Shown here: piece after piece, positions 9,595 through 38,735 of the stretch
How positions within the stretch are numbered: position 1 is the first letter of the stretch
Layout of the letters: every line of letters begins with the position of its first letter
Source of the DNA: a virus
DNA: 39,404 nucleotides
Virus record (IMG/VR): IMGVR_UViG_3300046002_007120
Location: 1 to 39,404 of that record
Strand: one strand, 5' to 3'
Translations under genes and position numbers: made by a program
Notes under the pieces: generated by a model
What the model saw: the letters and a program-made list of their open reading frames with translations, nothing else
Told to the model about the DNA's origin: nothing
Database searches by the model: none

Positions 9595-12500
9595 ATGGCA
9601 AGGATAAGTACGTACCCTAATGATACAAACGTAACAGGTCTCGATAAGTGGATAGGCAGCGACGCCGATAATTCAAACATTACCAAGAACTTTACAGCCG
9701 ATGCAGTAGCATCTTATTACAATAGGGTATCAAAGATTGATACAGGGTATTTCTCATGGGAGTTTGTCCCTGATTTGGCTCCTGCTGTTCAGTCATCAAT
9801 GACATTTGAGAAAGTAGGTTGGACTAACAATACCATTAACTTAACAGGACTTGGTGGCGTGATTAGAGTATCTAATCTAACGCTTGCTAACACTGTACCG
9901 GGGACATTTATTGAGAACGAATGGGTTAATAAAATTTTATTAGTTCATATCCCACAAAGCCCTAGTTTATACGCATTCTACAGAGTAGATGCGGTAGTTC
10001 AAGATGGGTGGTTCTATTTATTGACATTAACATTTTTAGATGGGAACAATAGTGTCATTCAAAGAAATGACCCTGTTGCTTTTGGTATTTTCTCTGCTAT
10101 TGCAGGGACAAGTGGTACCTCAGGCACATCGGGAACAAGTGGTACAACAGGTACTAGCGGTACGTCGGGAACGAGTGGCACATCAGGCACTACGGGCACG
10201 AGTGGCACGTCAGGAACGAGTGGCACATCAGCAACTAGTGGAACAACAGGTACTTCAGGTACAAGTGGTAGCTCAGGTACATCTGCAACCTCAGGAACAT
10301 CGGGTACAAATGGTACAGGAGGAACATCGGGTACGTCAGGTACGTCTGCGACCTCAGGTACAACAGGTACGTCAGGAACATCCGCAACTTCAGGAACATC
10401 AGGCTCATCAGGTAATACCGGTGATAGATATGCGACCACATCAACAACGACATTTACCTTAGGTAATGCAGGTACGATAACTGTAGGATTGGGATTAGCT
10501 TATACAGCAGCTCAATCTATTATCGTTGTTTATGATGCGAGTAACTTTCAAGAATGCGAGGTTATTGCTTATAATCCAGCAACGGGTGCTTTACAATTTG
10601 CCGCACCAACAAGAACTGCTGGAGGTGGCACATATAGTTTATGGACAGTCAACCTTGACGGTGCTAGTGGTGGCGATGGTTCATCGGGTACAAGTGGTAC
10701 AAGTGGCTCATCAGCAACATCAGGCACGTCGGGTACAAGTGGTACAACAGGAACGAGCGGTAGCTCAGGCACGAGTGCGACTAGTGGTACTTCAGGTACA
10801 ACAGGAGTTGATGGAACGAGTGGAACGAGTGGTACATCAGGAACTACAGGTACTAGTGGTACGTCGGGCACGTCAGGAACGACAGGAACGTCAGGAACTT
10901 CAGCTACATCAGGCACATCGGGTACGACAGGTACCTCAGGTTCTAGCGGTACGAGTGGTACGACAGGAAGCAGTGGCACGAGTGGCACGAGTGGTGTTGA
11001 TGGAACAAGTGGAAGTAGTGGTGTAGATGGAACGAGTGGTACGAGTGGAACAAGTGGCACATCAGGTACAGCAGGTACATCAGGGCGTAATGGTATTGAC
11101 GGGTCATCAGGAGCAGCAATTGTTAACTGGTATGGTGCTTTTACAAGCACAGTTACACAAACAGTTTCAGGCGCAAATACAGCCACAGCTATTACATATA
11201 CTAATGTTGAGTTATCAAATGGTATTGTATTTAGTGGTTCCCAAATTACCGTTCAACATACAGGTATATATGAGATTGGTTATTCTCTTCAATTAGAAAA
11301 AACATCTGGTGGTTCAGCTGTTGATGTTGATATTTGGTTAAAGAAAAATGGTACTAATATTATTAGAACCGATTCTGTTATAGGGCTAGTTTCTAACTCA
11401 GCGAAACAATTACCATTTGTATCTATTATAGATAGTGCAAGTGCTAATGACTACTATGAGGTTTACTTCTCATCAACAAGTCCTAACGTACAAATAACTG
11501 CTATTTCAGCAACTGGTATCCACCCGGCAGCACCTTCTATCATCACCAACATTAAACAAATTGGTGTGTCGGTTGGATCAACCTCAGGAACCTCAGGAAC
11601 CTCAGGTGCACAAGGAACTAGCGGTGCTAGTGGTACATCAGGCACATCGGGTACGTCAGGTGCTCAGGGTACAAGTGGAGCGAGCGGTTCATCAGGTACC
11701 TCAGGTACAAGTGGACTAGCAGGCACATCAACTCGTGTTGAGCAGAACTTTACAGCTACAGCAGGTCAGACTACATTCACCATTACAGGTGGGTATACCA
11801 TTGGTCTTATTGACGTGTACATTAACGGTGCTCGCCTTTTGCCAACTGACTATACAGCGACTAACGGCACGACAGTAGTATTAGGCACACCTGCATTGCT
11901 AAACGATGCGGTGACCGTGCTAAACTATACTTCTAGCATTGCAGCACTACCTACATCTAGAGATGTGTTTGACTACACAGCAACAGCTGCTCAGACAACT
12001 TTCACAGTTAGCGGAGGCTACACAGTAGGCTTGCTAGATGTGTATGTCAACGGTTCTAAGCTTACGCCTGCTGAGGTGACAGCGACCAATGGCACAACCT
12101 TTGTGTTGACAGTTGCTTCGGTAGTTGGGGATCAAGTTCAAGCTATCCGATACAACTCATCAATTAATGGTGTGTCAGGAAGCGGTACGGCAAACTATGT
12201 ATCTAAGTTTACTGCGAGTGGTACGATTGGGAATAGTAGTATTCAAGATAGTGGTTCTGCTTTGTCATTTGGTGTCGCATCTACTTTTTTAGATATTGTA
12301 AACATAGGAACTGCTGGTACTGAAAGACTAAATATATTTGGAGCAGGTTCTCAATATATAAATATTAAAAATACTACAACAAATGCAGATATGTTTGTTG
12401 GTATGTCATCAGGACTTGCTGCTGCTTATATTGGTACTGGTAGTTCAAATCCTTTTGTATTTGTAACTGCTGGAACCGAACGTATGCGGATAAATGCTGA

Positions 12501-13254
12501 TGGCAACATTAGTATGACTGGAACTTTAAATGTTCAAGGAAATTTAATGGGGCAACTTACAGCTGATAATGCTCCATTATTTAAAGTTGTATCTGGGGCT
12601 TCTACAAGTACAAGAAGTGGTATTGCAATTAAAGATTCTTGGAATGGCAGTACTAATACTGGCAGTTTTATGTACTTTTTTGTTGGTACTGGCTCAGGAG
12701 AAAGAGAGGCATTGCGGATTACGAATGCAGGAGATGTTTTAATGGGTAAAAGTGCTGAAAATGCAGGTGTAGCTGGATTCCAATATCGTGGGGCAGCTCC
12801 TGGACTTGTTCAAATTACAAGGGATGGTGGCGAGTCTTTACAATTGTGGAGATACACATCAAACGGGAAAATGTTAGTATTTTATTATAATGGTGCGGAA
12901 GTGGGTTCAATTTCGTCAAATACAAATTCTTTACCATCTGACTTAAACTTCAAAAAAGATATAAGTAATATTTCAATAGGTTTAAATCTTGTTAATAAAT
13001 TAAGACCAGTTCATTATAGACACAAATTAGATGAAGATAATGAGGCTTTATCAAATGGTATTATTGCTCAAGAATTAGAGCAATCATTATTAGATTGTGG
13101 TATTGAAAAAAATACTCTTTTAATGTTGCAACATAAGCCAAATGAAAAGGAAAACGAATCTCAATATTGGGTAGATTATACTAAAATGATTCCTATTTTG
13201 ATTAAGTCCATCCAAGAACTTTCTGCCAAAATAACCATCTTAGAAAATAAATAG
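9595..13254 (+). CDS. Tail fibre with GTS collagen-like repeats and S74 chaperone
   Basis: A 1219-residue fibre, probably trimeric. In order: an N-terminal globular attachment domain (1-168), GTS/GTT/GSS repeats (about 169-275), a small beta domain (275-360), a second GTS block (361-505), a C1q/TNF-like jelly roll (about 506-660, YGAFTSTVTQTV and VDIWLKKNG), a third block with GAQ units (661-711), two tandem copies of a domain with QTTFT(I/V)...GGYT(I/V)GL(I/L)DVY(I/V)NG (712-862), a TAGTERMRI module near 960, and a C-terminal S74 intramolecular chaperone (about 1115-1219: SDLNFKKDI, IIAQELEQ, VDYTKMIPILI). S74 domains trimerise the shaft and then cleave themselves off. The usual SDxRLKKD is SDLNFKKD here. 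It is the likely receptor-binding protein. Confidence 0.9.
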   Translation: MARISTYPNDTNVTGLDKWIGSDADNSNITKNFTADAVASYYNRVSKIDTGYFSWEFVPDLAPAVQSSMTFEKVGWTNNTINLTGLGGVIRVSNLTLANTVPGTFIENEWVNKILLVHIPQSPSLYAFYRVDAVVQDGWFYLLTLTFLDGNNSVIQRNDPVAFGIFSAIAGTSGTSGTSGTSGTTGTSGTSGTSGTSGTTGTSGTSGTSGTSATSGTTGTSGTSGSSGTSATSGTSGTNGTGGTSGTSGTSATSGTTGTSGTSATSGTSGSSGNTGDRYATTSTTTFTLGNAGTITVGLGLAYTAAQSIIVVYDASNFQECEVIAYNPATGALQFAAPTRTAGGGTYSLWTVNLDGASGGDGSSGTSGTSGSSATSGTSGTSGTTGTSGSSGTSATSGTSGTTGVDGTSGTSGTSGTTGTSGTSGTSGTTGTSGTSATSGTSGTTGTSGSSGTSGTTGSSGTSGTSGVDGTSGSSGVDGTSGTSGTSGTSGTAGTSGRNGIDGSSGAAIVNWYGAFTSTVTQTVSGANTATAITYTNVELSNGIVFSGSQITVQHTGIYEIGYSLQLEKTSGGSAVDVDIWLKKNGTNIIRTDSVIGLVSNSAKQLPFVSIIDSASANDYYEVYFSSTSPNVQITAISATGIHPAAPSIITNIKQIGVSVGSTSGTSGTSGAQGTSGASGTSGTSGTSGAQGTSGASGSSGTSGTSGLAGTSTRVEQNFTATAGQTTFTITGGYTIGLIDVYINGARLLPTDYTATNGTTVVLGTPALLNDAVTVLNYTSSIAALPTSRDVFDYTATAAQTTFTVSGGYTVGLLDVYVNGSKLTPAEVTATNGTTFVLTVASVVGDQVQAIRYNSSINGVSGSGTANYVSKFTASGTIGNSSIQDSGSALSFGVASTFLDIVNIGTAGTERLNIFGAGSQYINIKNTTTNADMFVGMSSGLAAAYIGTGSSNPFVFVTAGTERMRINADGNISMTGTLNVQGNLMGQLTADNAPLFKVVSGASTSTRSGIAIKDSWNGSTNTGSFMYFFVGTGSGEREALRITNAGDVLMGKSAENAGVAGFQYRGAAPGLVQITRDGGESLQLWRYTSNGKMLVFYYNGAEVGSISSNTNSLPSDLNFKKDISNISIGLNLVNKLRPVHYRHKLDEDNEALSNGIIAQELEQSLLDCGIEKNTLLMLQHKPNEKENESQYWVDYTKMIPILIKSIQELSAKITILENK
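10090..10420. repeat. GTS-coding minisatellite, block 1
   Basis: About 36 near-tandem 9-base units encode GTSGTSGTT-type collagen-like triplets. Codons vary freely (AGT, TCA, TCG for Ser; ACA, ACG, ACC, ACT for Thr), so the protein repeat is kept while the DNA repeat has diverged. Confidence 0.85.
10678..11100. repeat. GTS-coding minisatellite, block 2
   Basis: The longest GTS block, about 45 nine-base units, interrupted by GVDGTSG units (around 10804, 10993 and 11023). A length change by a multiple of 9 would keep the frame and change the fibre length. Confidence 0.85.
11578..11728. repeat. GTS/GAQ-coding minisatellite, block 3
   Basis: A short block of 9-base units with GAQGTSGAS variants that links the jelly-roll domain to the tandem beta domains. 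Confidence 0.8.
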
Positions 13255-16518: not shown

Positions 16519-16914
16519 ATGAAAAAGTATCGTGATCTGTTAGGCTTGGTTCACTACCTTAACCAATCTATCGAACAAGGCAAAACTATTGGCCAAAAGA
16601 AGTTAACAAAAATTGGTGACCTACTTAAGCCGCACATTGACTCGTACAACGACAAGAGAGAATGGATATTGTTATCTAACGCAAGTGTAGATGAGAATAA
16701 GAATCTTATCGTTGATGAGAACAATGCTTATAAGTATACTGCTGAAGGAGCACACAAGCGTGATAAGGAACTAATGGAATTGTTCTTATCTGACTTCGAC
16801 TATACACCAATACAAATTAACTCACCATCTGAGCTTGACCAATATACATTCTTATATGGTTGGGTAAACGGAGTAGAGTTTACTATTGAGCCTGAGGAAG
16901 AGGTAGAAATCTAG
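16519..16914 (+). CDS. Hypothetical protein, 131 aa
   Basis: A soluble protein with a basic helical N-terminal half (YRDLLGLVHYLNQSIEQGK) and an acidic tail (EPEEEVEI). I recognise no motif. It has its own promoter and lies between the endonuclease terminator and the convergent giant glycosyltransferase, with which it overlaps by 4 bases. No evidence ties it to either. Confidence 0.7.
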   Translation: MKKYRDLLGLVHYLNQSIEQGKTIGQKKLTKIGDLLKPHIDSYNDKREWILLSNASVDENKNLIVDENNAYKYTAEGAHKRDKELMELFLSDFDYTPIQINSPSELDQYTFLYGWVNGVEFTIEPEEEVEI

Positions 16915-19772
16915 AAGTAATATTTAATAGCTGATATTACATCAACAGCAGTGATACTCCTTTGACATTCAAATTGTCGAGGAGTATTTTTATTTACGGG
17001 GCACCAATCAAAGTCTCCACGGTCGAATTTATGCTCAGGGTTGTTCCAACAGCCATGGCACACGCTCTTGTTAGTTATGCGTATGCAGTCAAACTCGTGG
17101 TCATCTTTGGTGAAGTTACTTATCATCACGACTTGTTTGTCTAATGCCCACGCAAGCCAGCTCAAGCCTGAGCTAAGTCCGAGAAAAAACTCGCTGTTAT
17201 ATATAACGCTCATTGTGTTCTCAATGCTCACGTTATCTATCTTCTCGCAATTGTCAAATGGGTTGTCTTCTTTAGACACATTAATCACCCTGTACCCACG
17301 TGCGTGCAAATAGTTAATTGTCTCTTGCCACCCTTCTCGTGTCCAAAACTTACAGCCTGCCGTTGAGTTAGTAGCAATCGTCACATACTTACCATAGGTA
17401 TTCTTGCGTTTCTTAAACTTTATTCGAGGCTTAAGTTCTTCAAACTCTAGTCCCAATATATTTGCTGCCGCTTGTTGGAGTGGTATCGTGTTAGGCATGA
17501 CCGGTTCTTTGTTCTCGTCGTAGAACCATCCAAGATTATACTGCCCTGATATACCGTTCACTTCGGTGCCTGGGCTTACAAACTCTAGCTCAGGGTAATT
17601 AAATAAATGGTTCCAGAATGTTGACACCACCACATGGCAGTCGTGCTTTTCTTTGAACGCTAACACGTATGGCATCCAAGCAAGAGTGTCGCCAAGTGAC
17701 GACGAGTCAAATGATATTAATACTTTCTTGTTTTTATATGACAGCGTGCTCTCGTACACGAGCTCATCATTCTCAAATACCTTAGTTGTCCATTCGGTAA
17801 AATATTTCCGATTAAGTTTTACCCACGAGTTAGACTTAATTGTATTCTCGTAATGGCACGTTCCATGCTCATCAAAGAACTGAACTTTAAAGTTAAACTC
17901 TACAGGCGACTTAAGTTCTAAGTATGGGCCATCAATAAAGTTTTGTATTAATGTCACATCTTGGTCCTCCTTCTTATTATTCAAGGTATGCTTATAGAAG
18001 CCTAAGTATTCAATGCCAAATATTTCTGTTGTCTCATATATTGGCTTCTCATAGTTTGCTTTAATTGTTCTAAGGTCCGTGTCAATGGGCTGTATATACT
18101 TATCGTATATACCACAGTATTGTGGCAAGTTATGAGCAATGATTGGCAAGCCATAACTAATCGCTTCTCTAAGCACAAGTGGGTTGCATTCCCACGTAGA
18201 GTTGAACATAAAGATGTTAGCACCAAACATAAAGTCTGACACATCCTCTCGCTCTCCATGAACAATTACATTCTTTGGCAAGTCTTTCATTAATGGCTCC
18301 CAATAGTCTTTGAAGTTCCCTGCTTGGTTGCCAACAAAGTGGAATGTAAAATCAGGATACTTTCTTGCTATCTCGATTCCTTCTGCTTGGTTCTTGCCTG
18401 GTGTCCATAGCCCAACATTTAACACGTCTTTACCCGTTGGTAGAATAGTTCTTTGTTTGTTGTCAATTGGATAATTAATAACTTGCTTGTACGATGGCAA
18501 ACTCTCAAATGTTTTGTAATGATATGGCGTACAGAATGCATATGAGTCAGGGTGGAACAAAGTCTCTTTGATAGGATCAAATGCAATGTCATGACAAGTC
18601 TCTACTATTCTGTAGTCTCGGTTATTACTATACAACTTAGCCATGATGCTGTGGTCAAACCGTTCAGCAGGCTCGTGTAGATGGATGATGTCAGGCTTAA
18701 AATCACTTATCGCTTTAAATAGCAACGTCTTATCCTCATACAGCGTGGTAAAGTTCTCGCCTACAATATCTTTTATCTTGTTGCGTTGCACCACATAGTC
18801 TAAACTGTAGCAAGTATACTCAACCACGTATGGTGTAATCTTGCCATCTAAAGCTTCGAGTGTCTTAAGCACAAATGCAGGCATGCCACCTGTCGATAGG
18901 TGTGGCACTAGATACATTACTTTAATCGGACTAATCATCTGAACCATCTTCTCATAGCTTTTCTCTCCATGGTAGAATAGTAGCCTTTCTTTGCTTGCCG
19001 GTATTCTAACCCAACTGCCCATCATGTAATCTTCACCGGTAAATATGTCCATGCTATTTACCCTGTCGACCATATCCTGCTTACCGTTCACGTAGATATA
19101 TGGCAGTCCATCATGGAAATTGTACTTCCATAATAATACGTTTAATATTGTCTCCTCATTGTAGGGAGCATAGAAGTCGTTCATGGCAAGCACCACTGGA
19201 TGCATACACATGTTATACCATTCTTTTAGGAATATGATGCAGTTTCTATTTGCAACAAAGTACCCCGTCTGTCTGTAGCGTTGTCTGACATATTGGTCTA
19301 CACCGAACAGCTCGCATGCAGGATGCTCAAGTGTTGTGCTCAGGTCATCTCTACTCTCAGCCCCTCCCCTGTCGCCAACATGCAAGTAGTCATAGATACC
19401 CTCCACAAAGTAGGGGATAGGGGATGACTCATCGAACATGTCGAAAATAGTTGATGCGTATTTAGTTGCTACTGAGTCGGAGTCTATGTAGGCTACGGTC
19501 TCTGCGTACTTTAATGCATCAGCCACAATGAGTGGGCGTTGGATAAGAAGTTTGTAGATGTCAAGACTTGACCTATCGATGTACTCAGTCTGATCCGGGT
19601 TAATGGCATCGCAATCCCACCTGATGGTAAAGGTTGCGTTCTTAATCTGCCTATCCGAGTTGAGCATGTATACTAGCGTTGGAATGCTAGTATAGTAGTT
19701 TAATGACTGTACGCATGCCTCTACTGTTTCTGCGTATGATTCAGTTGCGTATAATACGTATGCTTGCTTCAT
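16911..19772 (-). CDS. Three-domain glycosyltransferase with O-heptosyltransferase-like C-terminus
   Basis: A 953-residue fusion of three sugar-transfer units. Residues 1-265 look like a GT-A enzyme with a DxD metal site (YIDSDSV, about 94-100). Residues about 278-600 are a GT4-type GT-B unit (VPHLSTGGMPAFV at the start, then ECNPLVLREAIS near 525, the E-x7-E donor motif). Residues about 640-953 match the autotransporter strand-loop-strand O-heptosyltransferase class (GT9-like): a beta hairpin, LISFDSSSLGDTLAWMPYV near 680, then the Cys cluster CHGCWN...FDWCP...FECQ (about 903-940) that holds an iron in that family. Those enzymes add heptose to Ser of adhesins. Here the fibre GTS repeats or the Pro/Thr-rich muzzle tail are candidate acceptors (inference). 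It is the only large leftward gene and has its own near-leaderless promoter. Confidence 0.85.
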   Translation of the reverse strand: MKQAYVLYATESYAETVEACVQSLNYYTSIPTLVYMLNSDRQIKNATFTIRWDCDAINPDQTEYIDRSSLDIYKLLIQRPLIVADALKYAETVAYIDSDSVATKYASTIFDMFDESSPIPYFVEGIYDYLHVGDRGGAESRDDLSTTLEHPACELFGVDQYVRQRYRQTGYFVANRNCIIFLKEWYNMCMHPVVLAMNDFYAPYNEETILNVLLWKYNFHDGLPYIYVNGKQDMVDRVNSMDIFTGEDYMMGSWVRIPASKERLLFYHGEKSYEKMVQMISPIKVMYLVPHLSTGGMPAFVLKTLEALDGKITPYVVEYTCYSLDYVVQRNKIKDIVGENFTTLYEDKTLLFKAISDFKPDIIHLHEPAERFDHSIMAKLYSNNRDYRIVETCHDIAFDPIKETLFHPDSYAFCTPYHYKTFESLPSYKQVINYPIDNKQRTILPTGKDVLNVGLWTPGKNQAEGIEIARKYPDFTFHFVGNQAGNFKDYWEPLMKDLPKNVIVHGEREDVSDFMFGANIFMFNSTWECNPLVLREAISYGLPIIAHNLPQYCGIYDKYIQPIDTDLRTIKANYEKPIYETTEIFGIEYLGFYKHTLNNKKEDQDVTLIQNFIDGPYLELKSPVEFNFKVQFFDEHGTCHYENTIKSNSWVKLNRKYFTEWTTKVFENDELVYESTLSYKNKKVLISFDSSSLGDTLAWMPYVLAFKEKHDCHVVVSTFWNHLFNYPELEFVSPGTEVNGISGQYNLGWFYDENKEPVMPNTIPLQQAAANILGLEFEELKPRIKFKKRKNTYGKYVTIATNSTAGCKFWTREGWQETINYLHARGYRVINVSKEDNPFDNCEKIDNVSIENTMSVIYNSEFFLGLSSGLSWLAWALDKQVVMISNFTKDDHEFDCIRITNKSVCHGCWNNPEHKFDRGDFDWCPVNKNTPRQFECQRSITAVDVISAIKYYF

Positions 19773-31208: not shown

Positions 31209-34200
31209 ATGGCTGAGTTACAAAGGAACTTCCTGCAAGGTATAATGAACAAGGATTTAGATCCTCATTTTTTACCCGATGGACAATATCGTGATGCTTT
31301 AAATATTATTGTTAATGATTCTGATGGGTATTTTAATACTGCAGATGGAGAGAACAATGGTTCTGTTCAGAATTATTTAGGCAATATAATTATAAACTCA
31401 AACTTGGGATTAACTAATGCTATCTGTATTGGTTCTATTTCTGTAGCCGCTGAAAATAAAATATATTGGTTTGTTACATCTGATTTTGCTGATGCAATTT
31501 ATGAATACAATGAAGATATTAATACAACTCAAATTGTATTAAAAGCTACAAAAACACCTACAACTTCATCTATCCTTAATTTTAGTAAATTATTTTATAT
31601 AACAGGTATAAATTTTATTAATGGTCTAATATTTTGGACTGATAATTACAATCCACCTAGAAGGATAAATATCGAAAGATCAAAGAATTACCTAGTAGAT
31701 GGATTTGATGAAAATGATATCAATGTAATTGTTGCCCCTCCTTTAAATTCGCCAACAATAGCATTATCTAATACAGGTGATTCCAATAATTTAGAAAATA
31801 AATTTTTATATTTTTCATATAGATATAAATATATTGATGATGAATATAGTGCACTAGCTCCATTTTCAGCTGTTGCATTTCTTCCTAAACAATTTTCATA
31901 TGACTATGGCGTAGGTGAAAATATATCTATGGTTAATATATATGATACTGTAACAATTACTTATTTAAGAGGAGGAGATAATGTAAAAGAAGTACAACTA
32001 ATATTTAGAGATACATCTAGTGTAAATACATATGTTATTGATAATATAGAAACTAGGAATTTATCTAGCGTTCAAGCACAAACATATCAATTTAAAAATA
32101 ACAAAGTATTTACATTATTAGACCCAAATCAAGTAAATAGACTTTTTGATAATGTACCATTGCGTGCTAAAGCGCAAGAGTTGATTGGTAATAGATTAAT
32201 ATATGGTAATTATACTCAGTTTTTTAATTTAGTTGATTGTCAAAATAATCCTATATCTCCGGTATTTAGTTTATCATTAACAACACAATCTATAACAAAT
32301 AGTAATCCTAAGCCTACATTTAAAAGTAATAGAGATTACGAGATTGGAATTGTTTATTTAGATGATTATGGTCGTAGTACAACAGTAATAGTTCCCAAAG
32401 GAAACAATTTACCTGCCACTAGTAATACTATTTTTATACCTGCTAGTAATTCTAATGTAGCTAATAATATACGTGTTACTATTGACAAAAGTTACAAACC
32501 TCCTTGTTTTGCTACATCTTATCGTTTTGTAATTAAACAAAATAAACAAGATTATTATAATGTATTTCCATTAACTTATTTTACAGATGGAGACTTTAAA
32601 TGGTTTTTAATAAATCAATCAGATGTTGATAAAATATCTGCTGGGTCGTATTTATATTTAAAAAATAGCACAAACCCTTCTCCTGCTACACAGTATAAAA
32701 TTTTAGACATAGAAACTAAATCAGCTAATTTTTTAAACAATGGGAACACGCAACCTTCTGGTATTTATTTTAAAGTAAAAGTTTTAAGTACTTCTCTTCC
32801 TCCATCATTTATTTATTCTGGATATGGAGGTAGAAATAACCTTGGGGGAACCGCAGTTACAAATCAATTTCAGGTAGCAGAAAAAGCCATATTTTATGGT
32901 AGTGGTTTAAATGACATGACTACAGGTGATGCTAATAGATATTTTATTACTGTCCCTGTTGGTAAGCCAAATGTTGATGCTAGATTTTACGTAGAAATAG
33001 ATTCAGTAGGAACTAGAGATACATATAAATACTATATAATTTTTGGTAACAATCAAAAGATATTAGTATCAACTAATAGTATACCTATTACTGCAAATTT
33101 AGATGAAACATTAAGTTATTCTGGAACTGCAATTGCTAGAAATACTGACTATGGAACTTATGCGTGTTCGATGTCATGTAAAATAAACTTTGCATCACAA
33201 ACTGGACATAAAAAAGGAGACTTTTGGGTTATTAACTGTAGGGCTAGTTACACTAGTGGGCTAGGCCCTATGAATATATTTGGTGGAGTATCGGCAATAA
33301 ATACTGTAAATTCAGCAGCTGCTGCTGTATATGTAACTACAAGAGAATGGGCATTAGGTAATTCTGTCGTAGGAAGTAGACCTATTTATCCTGGTGCAGT
33401 TTTAGACTTTAATGTTAAATATGGTACTACCGGGACCGAAATAAAAAAACAATTTATTTCATCTTCTTACTATGTAAATATTGAAGAGTGGTTCATCCAA
33501 GATGGAGCTTATGCAAATTTTAGCTTTATGGATGGAGGTAATTCAAGTGTAAGTTTTAGACGGGTTCTTGTTTTGCCAACTAGTAATCTTGGCCAAACTG
33601 CTAGTCAAGGGGGGTCTATTGGAGCGGTTACTTTAAATGAGCCGGTAGCAATGTTATTGCAAACTCTTGATTATAATGTTCCTAATAGTTTCCTTGCAAA
33701 ACTAAGTATAGTTCAACAAGAAACTTCTATTCTTTTTGAAACTGTTCCTGTAGATTCAAATCAAGATATTTACTATGAGTTGATTGGAACATATCCAATT
33801 ATAAACGGCAACCATTATGGTAATCAAACAAATCAAATAATTGGGGCACAACCAGCTATAACTGATTTAAATACTTTTAATGCAAACGGAAACTTTAATG
33901 CTTTTGCGTGGGGTAACAATGTAGAAAGTTATAGAATTAGAGATGATTTTAATTCATCTACAATGGAATTTAGCCCACGAGCTAATTCAACTTCAGAAGG
34001 ATATGCTGAACAAATATTAGTTCAAGCATTAACTTATAGTGGTGTATACCAACAAACAACCTCAATTAATAGATTAAATGAATTTAATTTATCAATAGGT
34101 AATTTTAAATATTTAGATATATTTTTTGGATCTATTCAGAAATTATATTCTCGTGATACAGATTTAATTGTATTACAAGAAAATAAAGTATCTAAAGTTT

Positions 34201-37200
34201 TATATGGTAAAAATTTACTTAGTGATTCTGTAGGTGGAGGTACGATTGCTTCTGTTCCTGAAGTTCTAGGTACTCAAATTGCATATGTTGGAGAATATGG
34301 TATTAGTGAAAACCCTGAAAGTTTTGCCATATGGGGAGATGATATGTTTTTTACAGATGCTAGAAGAGGGGCTATTTTAAGACTAGGGAATAACGGTTTG
34401 TTTGAAATATCTTCACAGGGTATGAAAAACTGGTTTAAATCAAATCTAGACCCAAGAACTGGTAAAATTGGAATTTTTGATCCATATTTTGAGCATTACG
34501 TATTAGCTAATAATACTAAAGATATTACAGGTTGTACAATTGAATTATCTAGTACATCATTTTCTTTTAGTGCTAATCCAAGTGCGCAATATTTGACTAT
34601 TACTGCAAATCAAGAATGGGCAATTGAAAATGCTGCACAATGGATTACATTATCTTCTTCCGTTGGTATTGGAAATGCAGTGATAACAATATCATTAAAT
34701 GATACTACTTATAATAGAGATGCACAATTAATATTAACAAGTTGTGGAATTCAATATATAATAAATATTGCACAGTCTAATGTTATAGTTCCAACTACTA
34801 CATTAGTACCAACAACTACTATAACTCCTACATTAGCTCCTACATTAGCTCCTACATTAGCTCCTACATTAGCTCCTCCTACAACTTTGCCAAATTTCAA
34901 TTATTATTATGCAACTAAATTGGAATGTGCTGATTGTACTGTTTCTTTAGGTGAAAATTTAATTGTTAAACTTGCAAATGTTACAGGGATAATAGGAAAA
35001 TATTATGTTTCATTTAGTGGAGATTATATTTATTTATTAACAGCTATTGCGCCATTTAATGCATTTGCTAATCAATTGCAAACTTTTGCATATAATACTT
35101 GTGCTAATGCTTGTACGGGCACAACTACTACTTTACCTCCAAGCAATTGTTATAATTATAATGCATTTAATAATAATGATGAGCCATTTACTTTATCTTG
35201 GACAGCTTGTGATGGAACACCTAGAACACAAAATGTACCGGCTTTATCATTAAGTACAACTTTCTGTGCTGAGAATGACAGTGTATTTGGATTTGAATTT
35301 ACAATATATAGACTAGAGCCTTGTACTGTTCCTACTACTACAATTACGCCAACTGCAGCAAGAACGACAACAACAATGAGGCCAATCTATGCATGCGAGA
35401 ATTATAGAAATAATTCTGGTCGTCAACTAATTGTTAGTTATGTTGATTGTAGTGGGTCTGTTAGAAGACAGGAAATAATTAATAATGGACAATTTATTTG
35501 TGCACAATATGAAACTTTGTCAGGATTTGATTCTCAATATTTAACATTAGTTGGTGAATGTTTTCCAAATCCAACTCAAGGACCTACTACCTCAACAACA
35601 GCTGGGCCACCTACTACTTCAACTATTGCACCGCCAACTACTACATATTCACCAGGTTTATGTCAGTATTGGCTTATTGAGCCTCCTTATACAGGTTCTG
35701 CATTATGGAGATATAAACTTTGTGGATCAAATACGATTACAAATAAAAATTTATTATATACAGACCCCGTTTTCTTTGTATGTATTGATACTGCATATGG
35801 AATGAATTTTGTATCTGGTAATTTTGGAACTAGAGCTGATTTACTTGGCAATTGCCCTCCAGCTACATGTTATACATATAGAGCAACCAATAATAATGGA
35901 GAGCCATTTACTTTGTCATGGACAGATTGCGACTATACAGAAAGAAGTGTAACAGTAGGGGCATTAATATCTACTACAGTTTGTGCTATAGAAGATTCTG
36001 TAGTTGGATATAATTTTACAATTACTAGACTAGAGCCATGTGTTTCACCTACTACAACTTCGGCTCCTACTACAACTACTACTTTGTCTCCAACAACTAG
36101 TACTACTTTGTCTCCAACTACTAGTACTACTTTGTCTCCGACTACTAGTACTACTTTGTCTCCGACTACTAGTACCACTTTAGCTCCGACAACTAGTACG
36201 ACTTTAGCTCCGACTTTAGCACCGACAATAGCACCAATTAACTGTTATAACTATAATGCATATAATACTAATAATGAGACAACTACTTTAACTTGGACAG
36301 AATGTAATGGTAATCCAAGAAGTGAAAACGTACCGGCTTTATCATTCAGTACAACTTTCTGTGCACAAGAAGGAAGTGTATTTGGATACGACTTTGAAGT
36401 TTATTTAATTAATTCTTGCGGGGTTGCTCCAACTACTACAATAGCTCCTACTAGCACAACGACTACTTTGTCACCGACAACTAGTACTACTTTGTCTCCG
36501 ACAACTAGTACTACTTTAGCTCCGACAACTAGTACTACTTTAGCTCCGACAACTAGTACTACTTTAGCTCCTACTTTGGCTCCTACAGTGCCTCCTACAT
36601 TGGCACCTACAGTACCACCAACAGTAGCACCAACAGTACCGCCAACAGCGGCTCCTACTACAACAATTGAACCATTTGATTACTATTATGCTGATAAGTA
36701 TGAATGTATTAACTGTGGTACTCCAGTAGATACAAATGTTATAGTTAAGTTTGCTCCTGGCACGACAGTAACTATAAATAAAAACTATATAAGCTTTAGT
36801 GGTGATTTCAATTACAGAATTCTTGCAGTAGCACCTTATAATGCTTTTGCTAATTTAATGCAAACAGTTGCTTATGACGATTGTAATGCAATATGTAATC
36901 CTGCTACTACTACTACTTTAGCACCGACTACCACATTAGCACCAAGCGTTTGTTATAATTACAATGCATTTAATAACAATGAAGAAACATTTACTTTATC
37001 GTGGACAGATTGTGATGGTACTGAAAGAACACAAAATGTAGCTGCATTGTCATATAGTACTACTTTCTGTGCTCAAAATGGAACAGTTACAGGATTTAAC
37101 TTCACTATTTATCAAATTGAACCTTGTAGTGTACCTCCAACATTAGCACCTACAGTTGCTCCAACGGTAGCACCTACAGTGCCTCCTACATTGGCAACGA

Positions 37201-37805
37201 CTACGACTATTGCTCCTACAGTTGCTCCTACGGTGGCACCTACAGTACCGCCTACATTAGCAACGACTACGACTTTAGCTCCCACTTTAGCCCCTACAAT
37301 AGCTCCTACAGTGCCCCCTACGGTAACACCTACTGCAGCACCGACGGTACCACCAACGGCAGCACCTACAGTAGGTCCAACGGCAGCACCCACTACTACA
37401 TGTATTCCTTATGGAACATTATTATCAACATTCTGTACTGGAGTTGATTTGTATGGAGTATATGCTGATGGAAATTGTGGAACATTCAGTGAACTTATTC
37501 AATCCGACTCACCAAGTTGTGGATATGTGGCTCCTACAGCAGCACCAACGGTACCTCCTACGGCAGCACCTACGGCAGCACCTACGGCAGCACCAACATC
37601 TCCTCCTGTAACTTGTAATTTCTACACTTTCATTGATGATGTAGGAAACGGAGGATACGTATATTATGTACCATGTGGGAGTACAAATGAAACAACTGTC
37701 TACATAGATCCATTTACATCACCACAATATTGCGTAGCTAATGGATATTATCCATATTCATACGACGGATTAATAATAAATGGACCACTTGGCCCTTGTA
37801 GTTAA
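31209..37805 (+). CDS. Muzzle-type tail protein fused to BACON and Cys-module adhesin array
   Basis: A 2198-residue protein. Residues 1-1100 carry the crAss-like muzzle/stabilisation signature (RNFLQGIMNKDLDPHFL then DGQYRDALNI, and WTDNYNPPRRINIERS) and would close the short tail. Residues about 1108-1190 look like a BACON domain (ITANQEWAIENAAQWITLSS, QYIINIAQS), a glycan-binding fold typical of Bacteroidota and their phages. Then come Pro/Thr linkers (TTSTTLSP, PTLAP, PTVPP) between small Cys modules: two C-x2-C...C-x3-C units (nt 34891-35115, 36675-36897) and seven units with four spaced Cys (nt about 35148-35326, 35394-35561, 35658-35855, 35868-36041, 36243-36419, 36951-37127, 37612-37802), plus one short four-Cys unit (about 37400-37530). 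The tail is a likely host- or mucus-binding adhesin. Thr density makes it a glycosylation candidate. Confidence 0.85.
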   Translation: MAELQRNFLQGIMNKDLDPHFLPDGQYRDALNIIVNDSDGYFNTADGENNGSVQNYLGNIIINSNLGLTNAICIGSISVAAENKIYWFVTSDFADAIYEYNEDINTTQIVLKATKTPTTSSILNFSKLFYITGINFINGLIFWTDNYNPPRRINIERSKNYLVDGFDENDINVIVAPPLNSPTIALSNTGDSNNLENKFLYFSYRYKYIDDEYSALAPFSAVAFLPKQFSYDYGVGENISMVNIYDTVTITYLRGGDNVKEVQLIFRDTSSVNTYVIDNIETRNLSSVQAQTYQFKNNKVFTLLDPNQVNRLFDNVPLRAKAQELIGNRLIYGNYTQFFNLVDCQNNPISPVFSLSLTTQSITNSNPKPTFKSNRDYEIGIVYLDDYGRSTTVIVPKGNNLPATSNTIFIPASNSNVANNIRVTIDKSYKPPCFATSYRFVIKQNKQDYYNVFPLTYFTDGDFKWFLINQSDVDKISAGSYLYLKNSTNPSPATQYKILDIETKSANFLNNGNTQPSGIYFKVKVLSTSLPPSFIYSGYGGRNNLGGTAVTNQFQVAEKAIFYGSGLNDMTTGDANRYFITVPVGKPNVDARFYVEIDSVGTRDTYKYYIIFGNNQKILVSTNSIPITANLDETLSYSGTAIARNTDYGTYACSMSCKINFASQTGHKKGDFWVINCRASYTSGLGPMNIFGGVSAINTVNSAAAAVYVTTREWALGNSVVGSRPIYPGAVLDFNVKYGTTGTEIKKQFISSSYYVNIEEWFIQDGAYANFSFMDGGNSSVSFRRVLVLPTSNLGQTASQGGSIGAVTLNEPVAMLLQTLDYNVPNSFLAKLSIVQQETSILFETVPVDSNQDIYYELIGTYPIINGNHYGNQTNQIIGAQPAITDLNTFNANGNFNAFAWGNNVESYRIRDDFNSSTMEFSPRANSTSEGYAEQILVQALTYSGVYQQTTSINRLNEFNLSIGNFKYLDIFFGSIQKLYSRDTDLIVLQENKVSKVLYGKNLLSDSVGGGTIASVPEVLGTQIAYVGEYGISENPESFAIWGDDMFFTDARRGAILRLGNNGLFEISSQGMKNWFKSNLDPRTGKIGIFDPYFEHYVLANNTKDITGCTIELSSTSFSFSANPSAQYLTITANQEWAIENAAQWITLSSSVGIGNAVITISLNDTTYNRDAQLILTSCGIQYIINIAQSNVIVPTTTLVPTTTITPTLAPTLAPTLAPTLAPPTTLPNFNYYYATKLECADCTVSLGENLIVKLANVTGIIGKYYVSFSGDYIYLLTAIAPFNAFANQLQTFAYNTCANACTGTTTTLPPSNCYNYNAFNNNDEPFTLSWTACDGTPRTQNVPALSLSTTFCAENDSVFGFEFTIYRLEPCTVPTTTITPTAARTTTTMRPIYACENYRNNSGRQLIVSYVDCSGSVRRQEIINNGQFICAQYETLSGFDSQYLTLVGECFPNPTQGPTTSTTAGPPTTSTIAPPTTTYSPGLCQYWLIEPPYTGSALWRYKLCGSNTITNKNLLYTDPVFFVCIDTAYGMNFVSGNFGTRADLLGNCPPATCYTYRATNNNGEPFTLSWTDCDYTERSVTVGALISTTVCAIEDSVVGYNFTITRLEPCVSPTTTSAPTTTTTLSPTTSTTLSPTTSTTLSPTTSTTLSPTTSTTLAPTTSTTLAPTLAPTIAPINCYNYNAYNTNNETTTLTWTECNGNPRSENVPALSFSTTFCAQEGSVFGYDFEVYLINSCGVAPTTTIAPTSTTTTLSPTTSTTLSPTTSTTLAPTTSTTLAPTTSTTLAPTLAPTVPPTLAPTVPPTVAPTVPPTAAPTTTIEPFDYYYADKYECINCGTPVDTNVIVKFAPGTTVTINKNYISFSGDFNYRILAVAPYNAFANLMQTVAYDDCNAICNPATTTTLAPTTTLAPSVCYNYNAFNNNEETFTLSWTDCDGTERTQNVAALSYSTTFCAQNGTVTGFNFTIYQIEPCSVPPTLAPTVAPTVAPTVPPTLATTTTIAPTVAPTVAPTVPPTLATTTTLAPTLAPTIAPTVPPTVTPTAAPTVPPTAAPTVGPTAAPTTTCIPYGTLLSTFCTGVDLYGVYADGNCGTFSELIQSDSPSCGYVAPTAAPTVPPTAAPTAAPTAAPTSPPVTCNFYTFIDDVGNGGYVYYVPCGSTNETTVYIDPFTSPQYCVANGYYPYSYDGLIINGPLGPCS
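34826..34876. repeat. 12-bp tandem repeat encoding PTLA
   Basis: Four near-perfect tandem copies of CCTACATTAGCT. Changes in copy number would keep the frame. Confidence 0.8.
36083..36212. repeat. 24-bp tandem repeats encoding PTTSTTLS/A, array 1
   Basis: About five to six near-identical 24-bp units containing ACTAGTAC(T/C)AC(T/G)... in the muzzle gene. The units are far more alike at DNA level than the GTS repeats of the fibre, suggesting recent expansion. Confidence 0.85.
36469..36566. repeat. 24-bp tandem repeats encoding PTTSTTLS/A, array 2
   Basis: Four units of the same 24-bp repeat as at 36083-36212, separated from it by one four-Cys module. The two arrays could recombine and delete or add the module between them. 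Confidence 0.85.
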
Positions 37806-37827
37806 AATAAAATAAAATAAAATAAAA
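37803..37827. repeat. (TAAAA)5 tract before a glycosyltransferase start
   Basis: Five perfect TAAAA units fill the whole gap between the muzzle stop (first TAA) and the next ATG. The last A is the first base of the start codon. Confidence 0.85.
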
Positions 37828-38735
37828 TGAAATTACGATTCTTATGTGCTCAACCTGCTAATACTTATTACATATGGCAGGTTGAGCTTGTGATTACTAA
37901 TTTTATGTCTATGGGTATTAATCCCAATATGATGGACATAGTGTGCAGTATTGAGAATAATATTATTCCACCCGAATGGACTAGGTTAGCTGAAAAATAT
38001 CCTGCAAGATTTTTTTTCTATAACGACACTAGAATAAGTAGAAATTATATTAGTTCTATTAGACCTAATATTATTAAGCAACACTTTATTGCGCATCCAT
38101 ATTTAAAACATGATGCAATATTTTATCATGATTGTGATATTGTTTTTACACGTCCGATTAATTGGGATAAATTTTTACAAGATGACAAATGGTATGGTAG
38201 CGATTGTAGGTGGTATATTGGTCACGATTATATCGTAAGCAAAGGCATGGAAGAGTTATCTCTTATGTGTAACATTGTAAACATAGATAAAAGCTATATT
38301 GTTAAGAATGAATTGAATTCTATTGGTGCTCAATATTTAATGAAAGGTATTGATGAATATTACTGGGCAAAAGTAGAACGTGATTCTGAAGTCTTATTTA
38401 ATGATGTATCATTTTTAGTAAATAAAAAGAAAGCTGAAAATCCTGATATAAATCCATTGCAAATTTGGTGTGCCGATATGTGGGCTGTCCTTTGGAACGG
38501 ATGGCAACGTGGATACGAAACTGTCTGCCACCCTGAACTAGAGTTTAGTTGGGCTACAAGTATAGAATCTGATTGGGATAAACATGCAATCATGCATAAT
38601 GCAGGAGTGCTTAATACTGACACAAAGTATTTTTATAAATCTGCCTATATGAATTCTTTACCTCCAAAAGATTTAATAGTTGAAAAAGGGTCTTGCAGTT
38701 ACAGATATTACGAATTACTAAAGCAAATTCTATAA
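37827..38735 (+). CDS. GT-A glycosyltransferase with DxD motif
   Basis: A 302-residue probable GT-A enzyme. IFYHDCDIVFTRP (about residues 98-110) holds the DxD metal/nucleotide-sugar site. Near residues 215-228, WCADMWAVLWNGWQ is where such enzymes place acceptor contacts, and a late His (HAIMHNAG) could be a metal ligand. The general pattern recalls hydroxyproline/serine O-glycosyltransferase-like proteins, a weak impression. It follows the Thr-rich muzzle gene with only a (TAAAA)5 leader, suggesting co-expression and that the muzzle tail or host glycans may be its acceptor. It could instead modify DNA or host surface. Confidence 0.75.
   Translation: MKLRFLCAQPANTYYIWQVELVITNFMSMGINPNMMDIVCSIENNIIPPEWTRLAEKYPARFFFYNDTRISRNYISSIRPNIIKQHFIAHPYLKHDAIFYHDCDIVFTRPINWDKFLQDDKWYGSDCRWYIGHDYIVSKGMEELSLMCNIVNIDKSYIVKNELNSIGAQYLMKGIDEYYWAKVERDSEVLFNDVSFLVNKKKAENPDINPLQIWCADMWAVLWNGWQRGYETVCHPELEFSWATSIESDWDKHAIMHNAGVLNTDTKYFYKSAYMNSLPPKDLIVEKGSCSYRYYELLKQIL

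Follow-up and report, generated by a model that had tools for sequence, protein, structure and literature searches.

Why should a phage tail protein carry long stretches of threonine, and what do the genes directly behind it do? The question is raised by IMG/VR virus record IMGVR_UViG_3300046002_007120, which was analysed over its full 39,404 nucleotides (the window). Here, an open reading frame (ORF) free of internal stops (31209-37805, plus strand, 2198 amino acids) joins a muzzle protein of crAss-like phages to a BACON domain and an array of small Cys modules on Thr/Pro linkers. The initial annotation, made from the sequence alone, had rightly seen the Cys modules and overlooked both the Thr linkers as the tell-tale feature and the two glycosyltransferase genes that follow. 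We propose, at a probability of roughly 70%, that the phage O-glycosylates the Thr linkers of its muzzle in the host cytoplasm and thus acquires a tail-tip adhesin that is stiff and mucin-like.

A predicted glycosyltransferase behind the muzzle gene

The gene that starts 21 bases past the muzzle stop encodes a 302-residue protein of phrog_4417, a family to which PHROGs assigns no function. An AlphaFold2 model based on a 30-sequence alignment had a GT-A fold with a predicted local distance difference test (pLDDT) score of 95.6. The best structural matches, among them retaining GT8-like enzymes, were glycogenin (Z score 14.4), LgtC (13.9), the Skp1 galactosyltransferase (13.8), WbbM (13.4) and GlyE (13.1). 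A DxD motif and a late His (D102, D104 and H257) were invariant in 15 proteins from Bacteroidota and Bacillota phages; in GT8 enzymes, residues of this kind bind metal. At the sequence level, membership in a glycosyltransferase family did not emerge. Pfam returned no family for the window protein at an E value of 1, one of 30 relatives matched Gly_transf_sug at 0.014, and a PDB sequence search with the phrog_4417 profile gave no match. Judged by its model, the protein is a predicted GT8-like glycosyltransferase of GT-A fold, previously unannotated.

The next gene in the window codes for a family-2 glycosyltransferase (GT2). In relatives, further GT2, GT25 and sugar-binding DXD transferases as well as methyltransferases are encoded downstream. 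The enzyme tree separated a Bacillota from a Bacteroidota clade (support 100/100). In Gram-positive phages, 'prophage pi2 protein 34' belongs to the same family (27-41% identity) and also is encoded beside virion genes. Directly behind the transferase in L028, L042, L058 and other loci we noted a family of about 294 residues (starting M-R-I-I-S-A-K-Y-G-G) without a clear Pfam match, which may be another glycan enzyme. In the window, six TAAAA repeats (37803-37833) lie between the muzzle stop and the transferase start, perhaps an A-rich translation signal of the Bacteroidota type.

The enzyme gene follows threonine tracts

A Thr tract was scored where a stretch of 12 residues had 7 or more Thr. 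IMG/VR held 294 relatives of the enzyme, and the best 80 of these were retrieved; bacterial genomes, searched separately, yielded 39 enzyme loci. Linkage was counted on 35 enzyme clusters of less than 70% identity, with L135, L137, L139, L140 and a few others excluded as their upstream gene was unreadable or not close. The immediately upstream gene carried a Thr tract in 30 of the 35 clusters, and a tract was present somewhere in the locus in all 35. Of the downstream neighbours 1/121 had one, and of all other genes 75/1664, a background of 4.5%. The binomial probability for the upstream linkage was about 1e-35. The background is conservative because Thr-tailed capsid genes were counted in it.

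The carriers of these tracts are unrelated. Among the best 80 of the 294 IMG/VR relatives the upstream gene was mostly Thr-rich, often Cys-rich and otherwise unlike a muzzle. In the bacterial genomes, a Thr tract adjoined the enzyme or lay close to it in 36 of the 39 enzyme loci. In Bacilli the tract takes the form of a short tail at the C-terminus (e.g. AYPTTTTTTTTSA) of the major tail protein, whose gene immediately precedes that of the enzyme; the major capsid protein, encoded 2-3 kb upstream, frequently has such a tail too. Cultured phages fit this picture, with tracts in the major tail protein of phiFL1A, the capsid protein of CHPC836 and, for PLE3 and LpeD, in small Thr-rich proteins. 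The families concerned include major tail proteins (phrog_88 and phrog_14018), tail tube proteins (phrog_6686) and major head proteins (phrog_840, phrog_247 and phrog_10), with at least three major-capsid families represented, in addition to muzzles and fibres. Both phylum-level enzyme clades showed the linkage. In L113 and in many Bacilli tails the tract is made up almost wholly of Thr; thus, Pro is not essential.

Several observations weigh against a simple pairing of tract and enzyme. Among 77 viral regions that code for TTTTTAPTTTTT, just 10 had the enzyme nearby; when 46 records lacking a local copy were examined in full, it turned up in 3. Because most TTTTTAPTTTTT proteins are without phrog_4417, the tract alone does not predict the enzyme. 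In the clade L002-L022 kilobases separate the Thr tract from the enzyme, and L012, L007 and L020, which are fragments, had no tract by the short pattern. L139 and L140 adjoin lanthipeptide genes instead. Finally, the counts are inflated by sequences related by descent.

Many other viral proteins with TTTTTAPTTTTT and without phrog_4417 (L174-L250) were seen, some of which adjoin GT2 or GT29 enzymes; on account of these neighbours, other enzymes may serve the same Thr tag. Among 62 near neighbours of TTTTTAPTTTTT genes Pfam identified GT2 in four, a GT2-like domain in one and GT29 in one, and for 62 distant genes the 25 families shown included no glycosyltransferase, a comparison that is no more than suggestive. 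In Mucilaginibacter (L139:4995-6692) and Pedobacter (L140:4959-6515), longer relatives of the transferase neighbour lanthipeptide genes of LanB/LanC type, another peptide-modifying setting and perhaps a pathway to a glycosylated lanthipeptide. In a deltaproteobacterial metagenome-assembled genome (L137:3-2846) the gene ahead of an enzyme relative encodes PAPESSQPD repeats, a mucin-like stretch in a Ser/Pro version.

Muzzles with and without threonine linkers

The muzzle relatives, 46 of which were compared from IMG/VR, constitute a natural experiment. Every Thr-linker muzzle with readable downstream DNA (L084, L086, L105, L113, L115, L116 and that of the window) had the enzyme directly behind it. 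In the six besides the window the distance was 1-13 bases; in L084 the first 45 residues of the enzyme are followed by the contig end. The 25 muzzle records with BACON-D-D and no Thr linkers had a different next gene, and no enzyme was found in the whole records, up to 104 kb (Fisher p = 3e-4 with muzzles clustered at 90%, 0.008 at 80%). D modules were present in both classes. Accordingly, the enzyme follows the linkers and not the modules, and the modules were rejected as its partner. In L102 the muzzle has no Thr linker, and the enzyme comes after the next gene, an ORF of 1416 residues with the Pro/Thr linker PTTAPPTTAPPTTT.

Phage-borne transferases which alter host surface glycans are common. 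Could the Thr/Pro linkers be passive and unmodified, while the transferase acts on host surface glycans in superinfection exclusion from a common insertion site behind structural genes? That Thr tracts are found in many phages without this enzyme would fit. We consider this improbable, since the transferase gene is placed behind Thr-tract genes in both phyla, whichever structural gene carries the tract, since the order is polar, as the downstream neighbours indicate, and since the enzyme is absent from close relatives which have the same muzzle modules and no Thr linkers.

Alternatively, the transferase might add a second or later sugar to linkers which were primed by a host enzyme or another phage enzyme, or it might glycosylate the Cys modules. 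Its structural neighbour GlyE acts on the pneumococcal adhesin PsrP when this is already glycosylated (PMC12656782). Other transferases are often adjacent, which would also fit. Yet most copies in Bacillota prophages are located behind capsid or tail proteins that have a Thr tail and no Cys modules, and modules without Thr linkers are also without the enzyme. Further, the general O-glycosylation of Bacteroidota is periplasmic whereas virion proteins are cytoplasmic. All in all, these variants appear unlikely to us.

Direct glycosylation of the Thr linkers by the phage enzyme is then the reading we favour. On this view, the muzzle array would make up one unit with the two genes that follow it. 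The phrog_4417 protein would be a cytoplasmic O-glycosyltransferase that recognises Thr runs with Ser, Pro or Ala spacers on virion proteins. In the window its targets would be the Thr/Pro linkers of the muzzle array, modified ahead of assembly, with the sugar probably extended by the family-2 transferase encoded next. No obvious signal peptide was apparent when the N-termini of muzzle and enzyme were read; therefore, modification is expected to take place in the host cytoplasm prior to assembly. The outcome would be a stiff, mucin-like and protease-resistant stalk which holds BACON and the small disulphide modules at a distance from the tail tip, with the putative role of a swappable adhesin.

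Going by the sequences, phages probably glycosylate their own particles via a portable poly-threonine tag, which could be appended to or inserted into almost any virion protein, be it major capsid, major tail, fibre or muzzle protein. We consider it fairly likely that phages of at least two phyla share such a virion O-glycosylation with a dedicated GT8-like phrog_4417 enzyme encoded directly behind the tag, and that crAss-like phages have expanded the tag into mucin-like linkers, giving a glycosylated tail-tip adhesin.

Composition of the array

The anatomy proposed in the initial annotation was confirmed: BACON is followed by about ten Cys modules, i.e. two A modules (C-x2-C ... C-x3-C), seven four-Cys B modules and one short four-Cys module (residues 2063-2108), which are joined by Thr/Pro linkers (Table 1). 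The BACON domain scored 27.1 bits at a gathering cut-off of 25; its profile matches PDB 3zmr, a GH5 chain, and BACON_2 was detected in 12 of 15 relatives. The number of seven B modules held by Cys spacing, while a profile hidden Markov model (HMM) recognised six and missed B3 (residues 1483-1551), for which Cys spacing is the sole basis. The linkers consist of 38% T, 21% P, 14% A and 7% S. They are encoded by tandem repeats of 12 and 24 nt; consequently, their length may change by slippage.

When aligned (alignment A3), the B modules retained four Cys, and an AlphaFold2 model of one was a confident all-beta mini-domain (pLDDT 96.3). Foldseek found no match at an E value of 0.001, and the PDB held no convincing relative (best VIA Z 5.0; weak matches to subunits of endospore appendages, Ena, at Z 3.5-4.3). 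A named fold was therefore not assigned. L035 and L071 have B modules in which Cys 1 and Cys 3 were lost jointly; from these two sequences a disulphide pairing of C1-C3 and C2-C4 is suggested. The B module recurs in 34 unique copies at 26 loci in otherwise differing, unrelated phage proteins. Module order and number vary among muzzle relatives and the array plan is conserved. Recurrence and conservation show that the array is more than chance. Thus, the modular, swappable and adhesin-like character of the array is supported, its adhesive role being a putative one. The view that Cys-rich parts are odd in a virion was not upheld, as the tail of phicrAss001 is stabilised by disulphides (PMC10172136).

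Might the C-terminal part be an assembly join with another gene, as had been raised at the outset? Low-complexity repeats can mislead assemblers, and the ORF is without a MUZ_C domain. The separate record L083, however, is identical to the window ORF over 2108/2108 residues, through the array and across the junction. The BACON-array plan recurs in L084, L086, L105, L113 and L116, and even relatives that have no array encode MUZ_C separately. An assembly join was ruled out on these grounds, and we give it practically no weight.

The muzzle core

The initial annotation had recognised the first half of the ORF as a crAss-like tail muzzle. This was correct, given the match to phrog_14478 (best stretch residues 364-1116) and the full-length match of the core to gp97 of Cellulophaga phage phi38:1 at 33% identity. 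The Pfam domain crAss_MUZ_C, which gp97 itself contains, was not found in the 2198-residue ORF by Pfam scan. In phi38:1 and the Flavobacterium elemo phages crAss_MUZ_C is the muzzle C-terminus; in the clade of the window it is a gene of its own downstream of the muzzle. Relatives without an array have this gene directly after the muzzle core, whereas in array-bearing relatives transferase genes are located between the two. The window stops short of the position where the MUZ_C gene would come. Accessory genes separate muzzle and MUZ_C in L089, L086, L105, L113, L116 and L254, with a putative glycosidase in ctfjg026 (L254). A PDB sequence search with the muzzle core gave no match, and no close isolate of the window phage was found.

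As in gp44 of phicrAss001 and gp97 of phi38:1, a homologous core is located at the tail tip. The window differs from both in that MUZ_C is split off, that the core has gained BACON, modules and Thr linkers, and that its array-bearing clade holds a transferase cassette between the two muzzle halves. Two large ORFs are situated elsewhere in the window, at 9595-13254 (plus strand, 1219 residues) and 16911-19772 (minus strand, 953 residues).

Table 1. Features of the muzzle ORF and of the genes behind it (window positions).
Feature	Position	Strand	Basis
Muzzle core, residues 1-1100, without crAss_MUZ_C	31209..34508	+	phrog_14478 E 1.3e-183; phi38:1 gp97 33%; 46 IMG/VR relatives
BACON domain, residues 1105-1191	34521..34781	+	PF13004 E 4.1e-6; 3zmr match
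Thr/Pro linker 1	34782..34895	+	DNA tandem repeats
A module 1 (C-x2-C ... C-x3-C)	34896..35123	+	Cys pattern
B module 1 (four Cys)	35142..35330	+	Alignment A3; AlphaFold2 pLDDT 96.3, all-beta
Thr linker	35331..35384	+	
B module 2	35385..35567	+	
Thr/Pro linker	35568..35654	+	
B module 3	35655..35861	+	Cys spacing alone, no HMM match
B module 4	35862..36047	+	
Long Thr/Pro linker, PTTSTTLS repeats	36048..36236	+	
B module 5	36237..36425	+	
Long Thr/Pro linker	36426..36674	+	
A module 2	36675..36905	+	
B module 6	36945..37133	+	
Long Thr/Pro linker, APTVAPTVPPT repeats	37134..37394	+	
Short four-Cys module	37395..37532	+	
Pro/Thr/Ala linker	37533..37607	+	
B module 7, terminal; equivalents end the arrays of L084, L086, L105, L113, L116	37608..37802	+	
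phrog_4417 protein, predicted GT-A (GT8-like) glycosyltransferase, proposed to act on Thr linkers	37827..38735	+	phrog_4417 E 2.1e-59; predicted fold
Family-2 glycosyltransferase, possible glycan extender, runs off contig end	38737..39402	+	PF00535 E 7.8e-7

Relation to known systems

The closest working analogy is the PsrP/GlyE system of Streptococcus pneumoniae. There, low-complexity adhesin repeats of a hydroxyl amino acid are glycosylated in the cytosol by enzymes encoded adjacent to the adhesin. GlyE, the GT8 member of the PsrP cassette and a structural neighbour of the window enzyme, O-glycosylates the serine-rich PsrP (PMC12656782). The window likewise has S/T-rich repeats on a candidate adhesin with transferase genes directly behind. 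The array differs from PsrP in being a virion component and not a secreted wall protein, and in using Thr, not Ser. Sequence homology between the two systems was not detected.

To our knowledge, virion glycosylation is directly known from a few mycobacteriophages, in which it alters immune recognition. According to Freeman et al. (2023), as cited in PMC12363180, the mycobacteriophages Che8, Corndog and Myrna glycosylate capsid and tail-tube proteins with transferases of their own; these are phage-encoded glycosyltransferases acting on virion proteins, as is proposed here. The systems otherwise differ. Che8 gp108-110 showed no detectable homology to the phrog_4417 family (best E 0.16 against profile A2), the major capsid and tail proteins of Che8 have no Thr tract (at most 4 Thr in 12 residues), and, unlike phrog_4417, the transferase genes of Che8 are far from the structural genes.

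Within the phrog_4417 family, the copies of Bacillota prophages mostly follow Thr-tailed major capsid or tail proteins, whereas that of the window follows an adhesin array. Tandem BACON repeats of crAss phage have been described (crAss-BACON; de Jonge et al., 2019; PMC6949934). Tail-associated BACON is thought to bind to the host surface, and the window has a tail BACON as well, in this case a single one, followed by an array in which other modules are set on Thr linkers. In the literature searched, which excludes most subscription journals and preprints, we found no description of the pairing of phrog_4417 with poly-Thr or of poly-threonine phage glycosylation.

If the proposal is correct, the uncharacterised phrog_4417 family would have a function, and a simple sequence rule, a Thr tract with an adjacent phrog_4417 gene, would predict glycosylated virions from genomes. 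Were phages of lactic acid bacteria, bacilli and Bacteroidota to have a second system, unrelated to the first, virion glycosylation would be a much more general trait, with a bearing on phage stability, adhesion to mucus or hosts, and immune masking. Such a system would also provide a genetically encoded Thr-tract glycosylation tag that functions in the bacterial cytoplasm.

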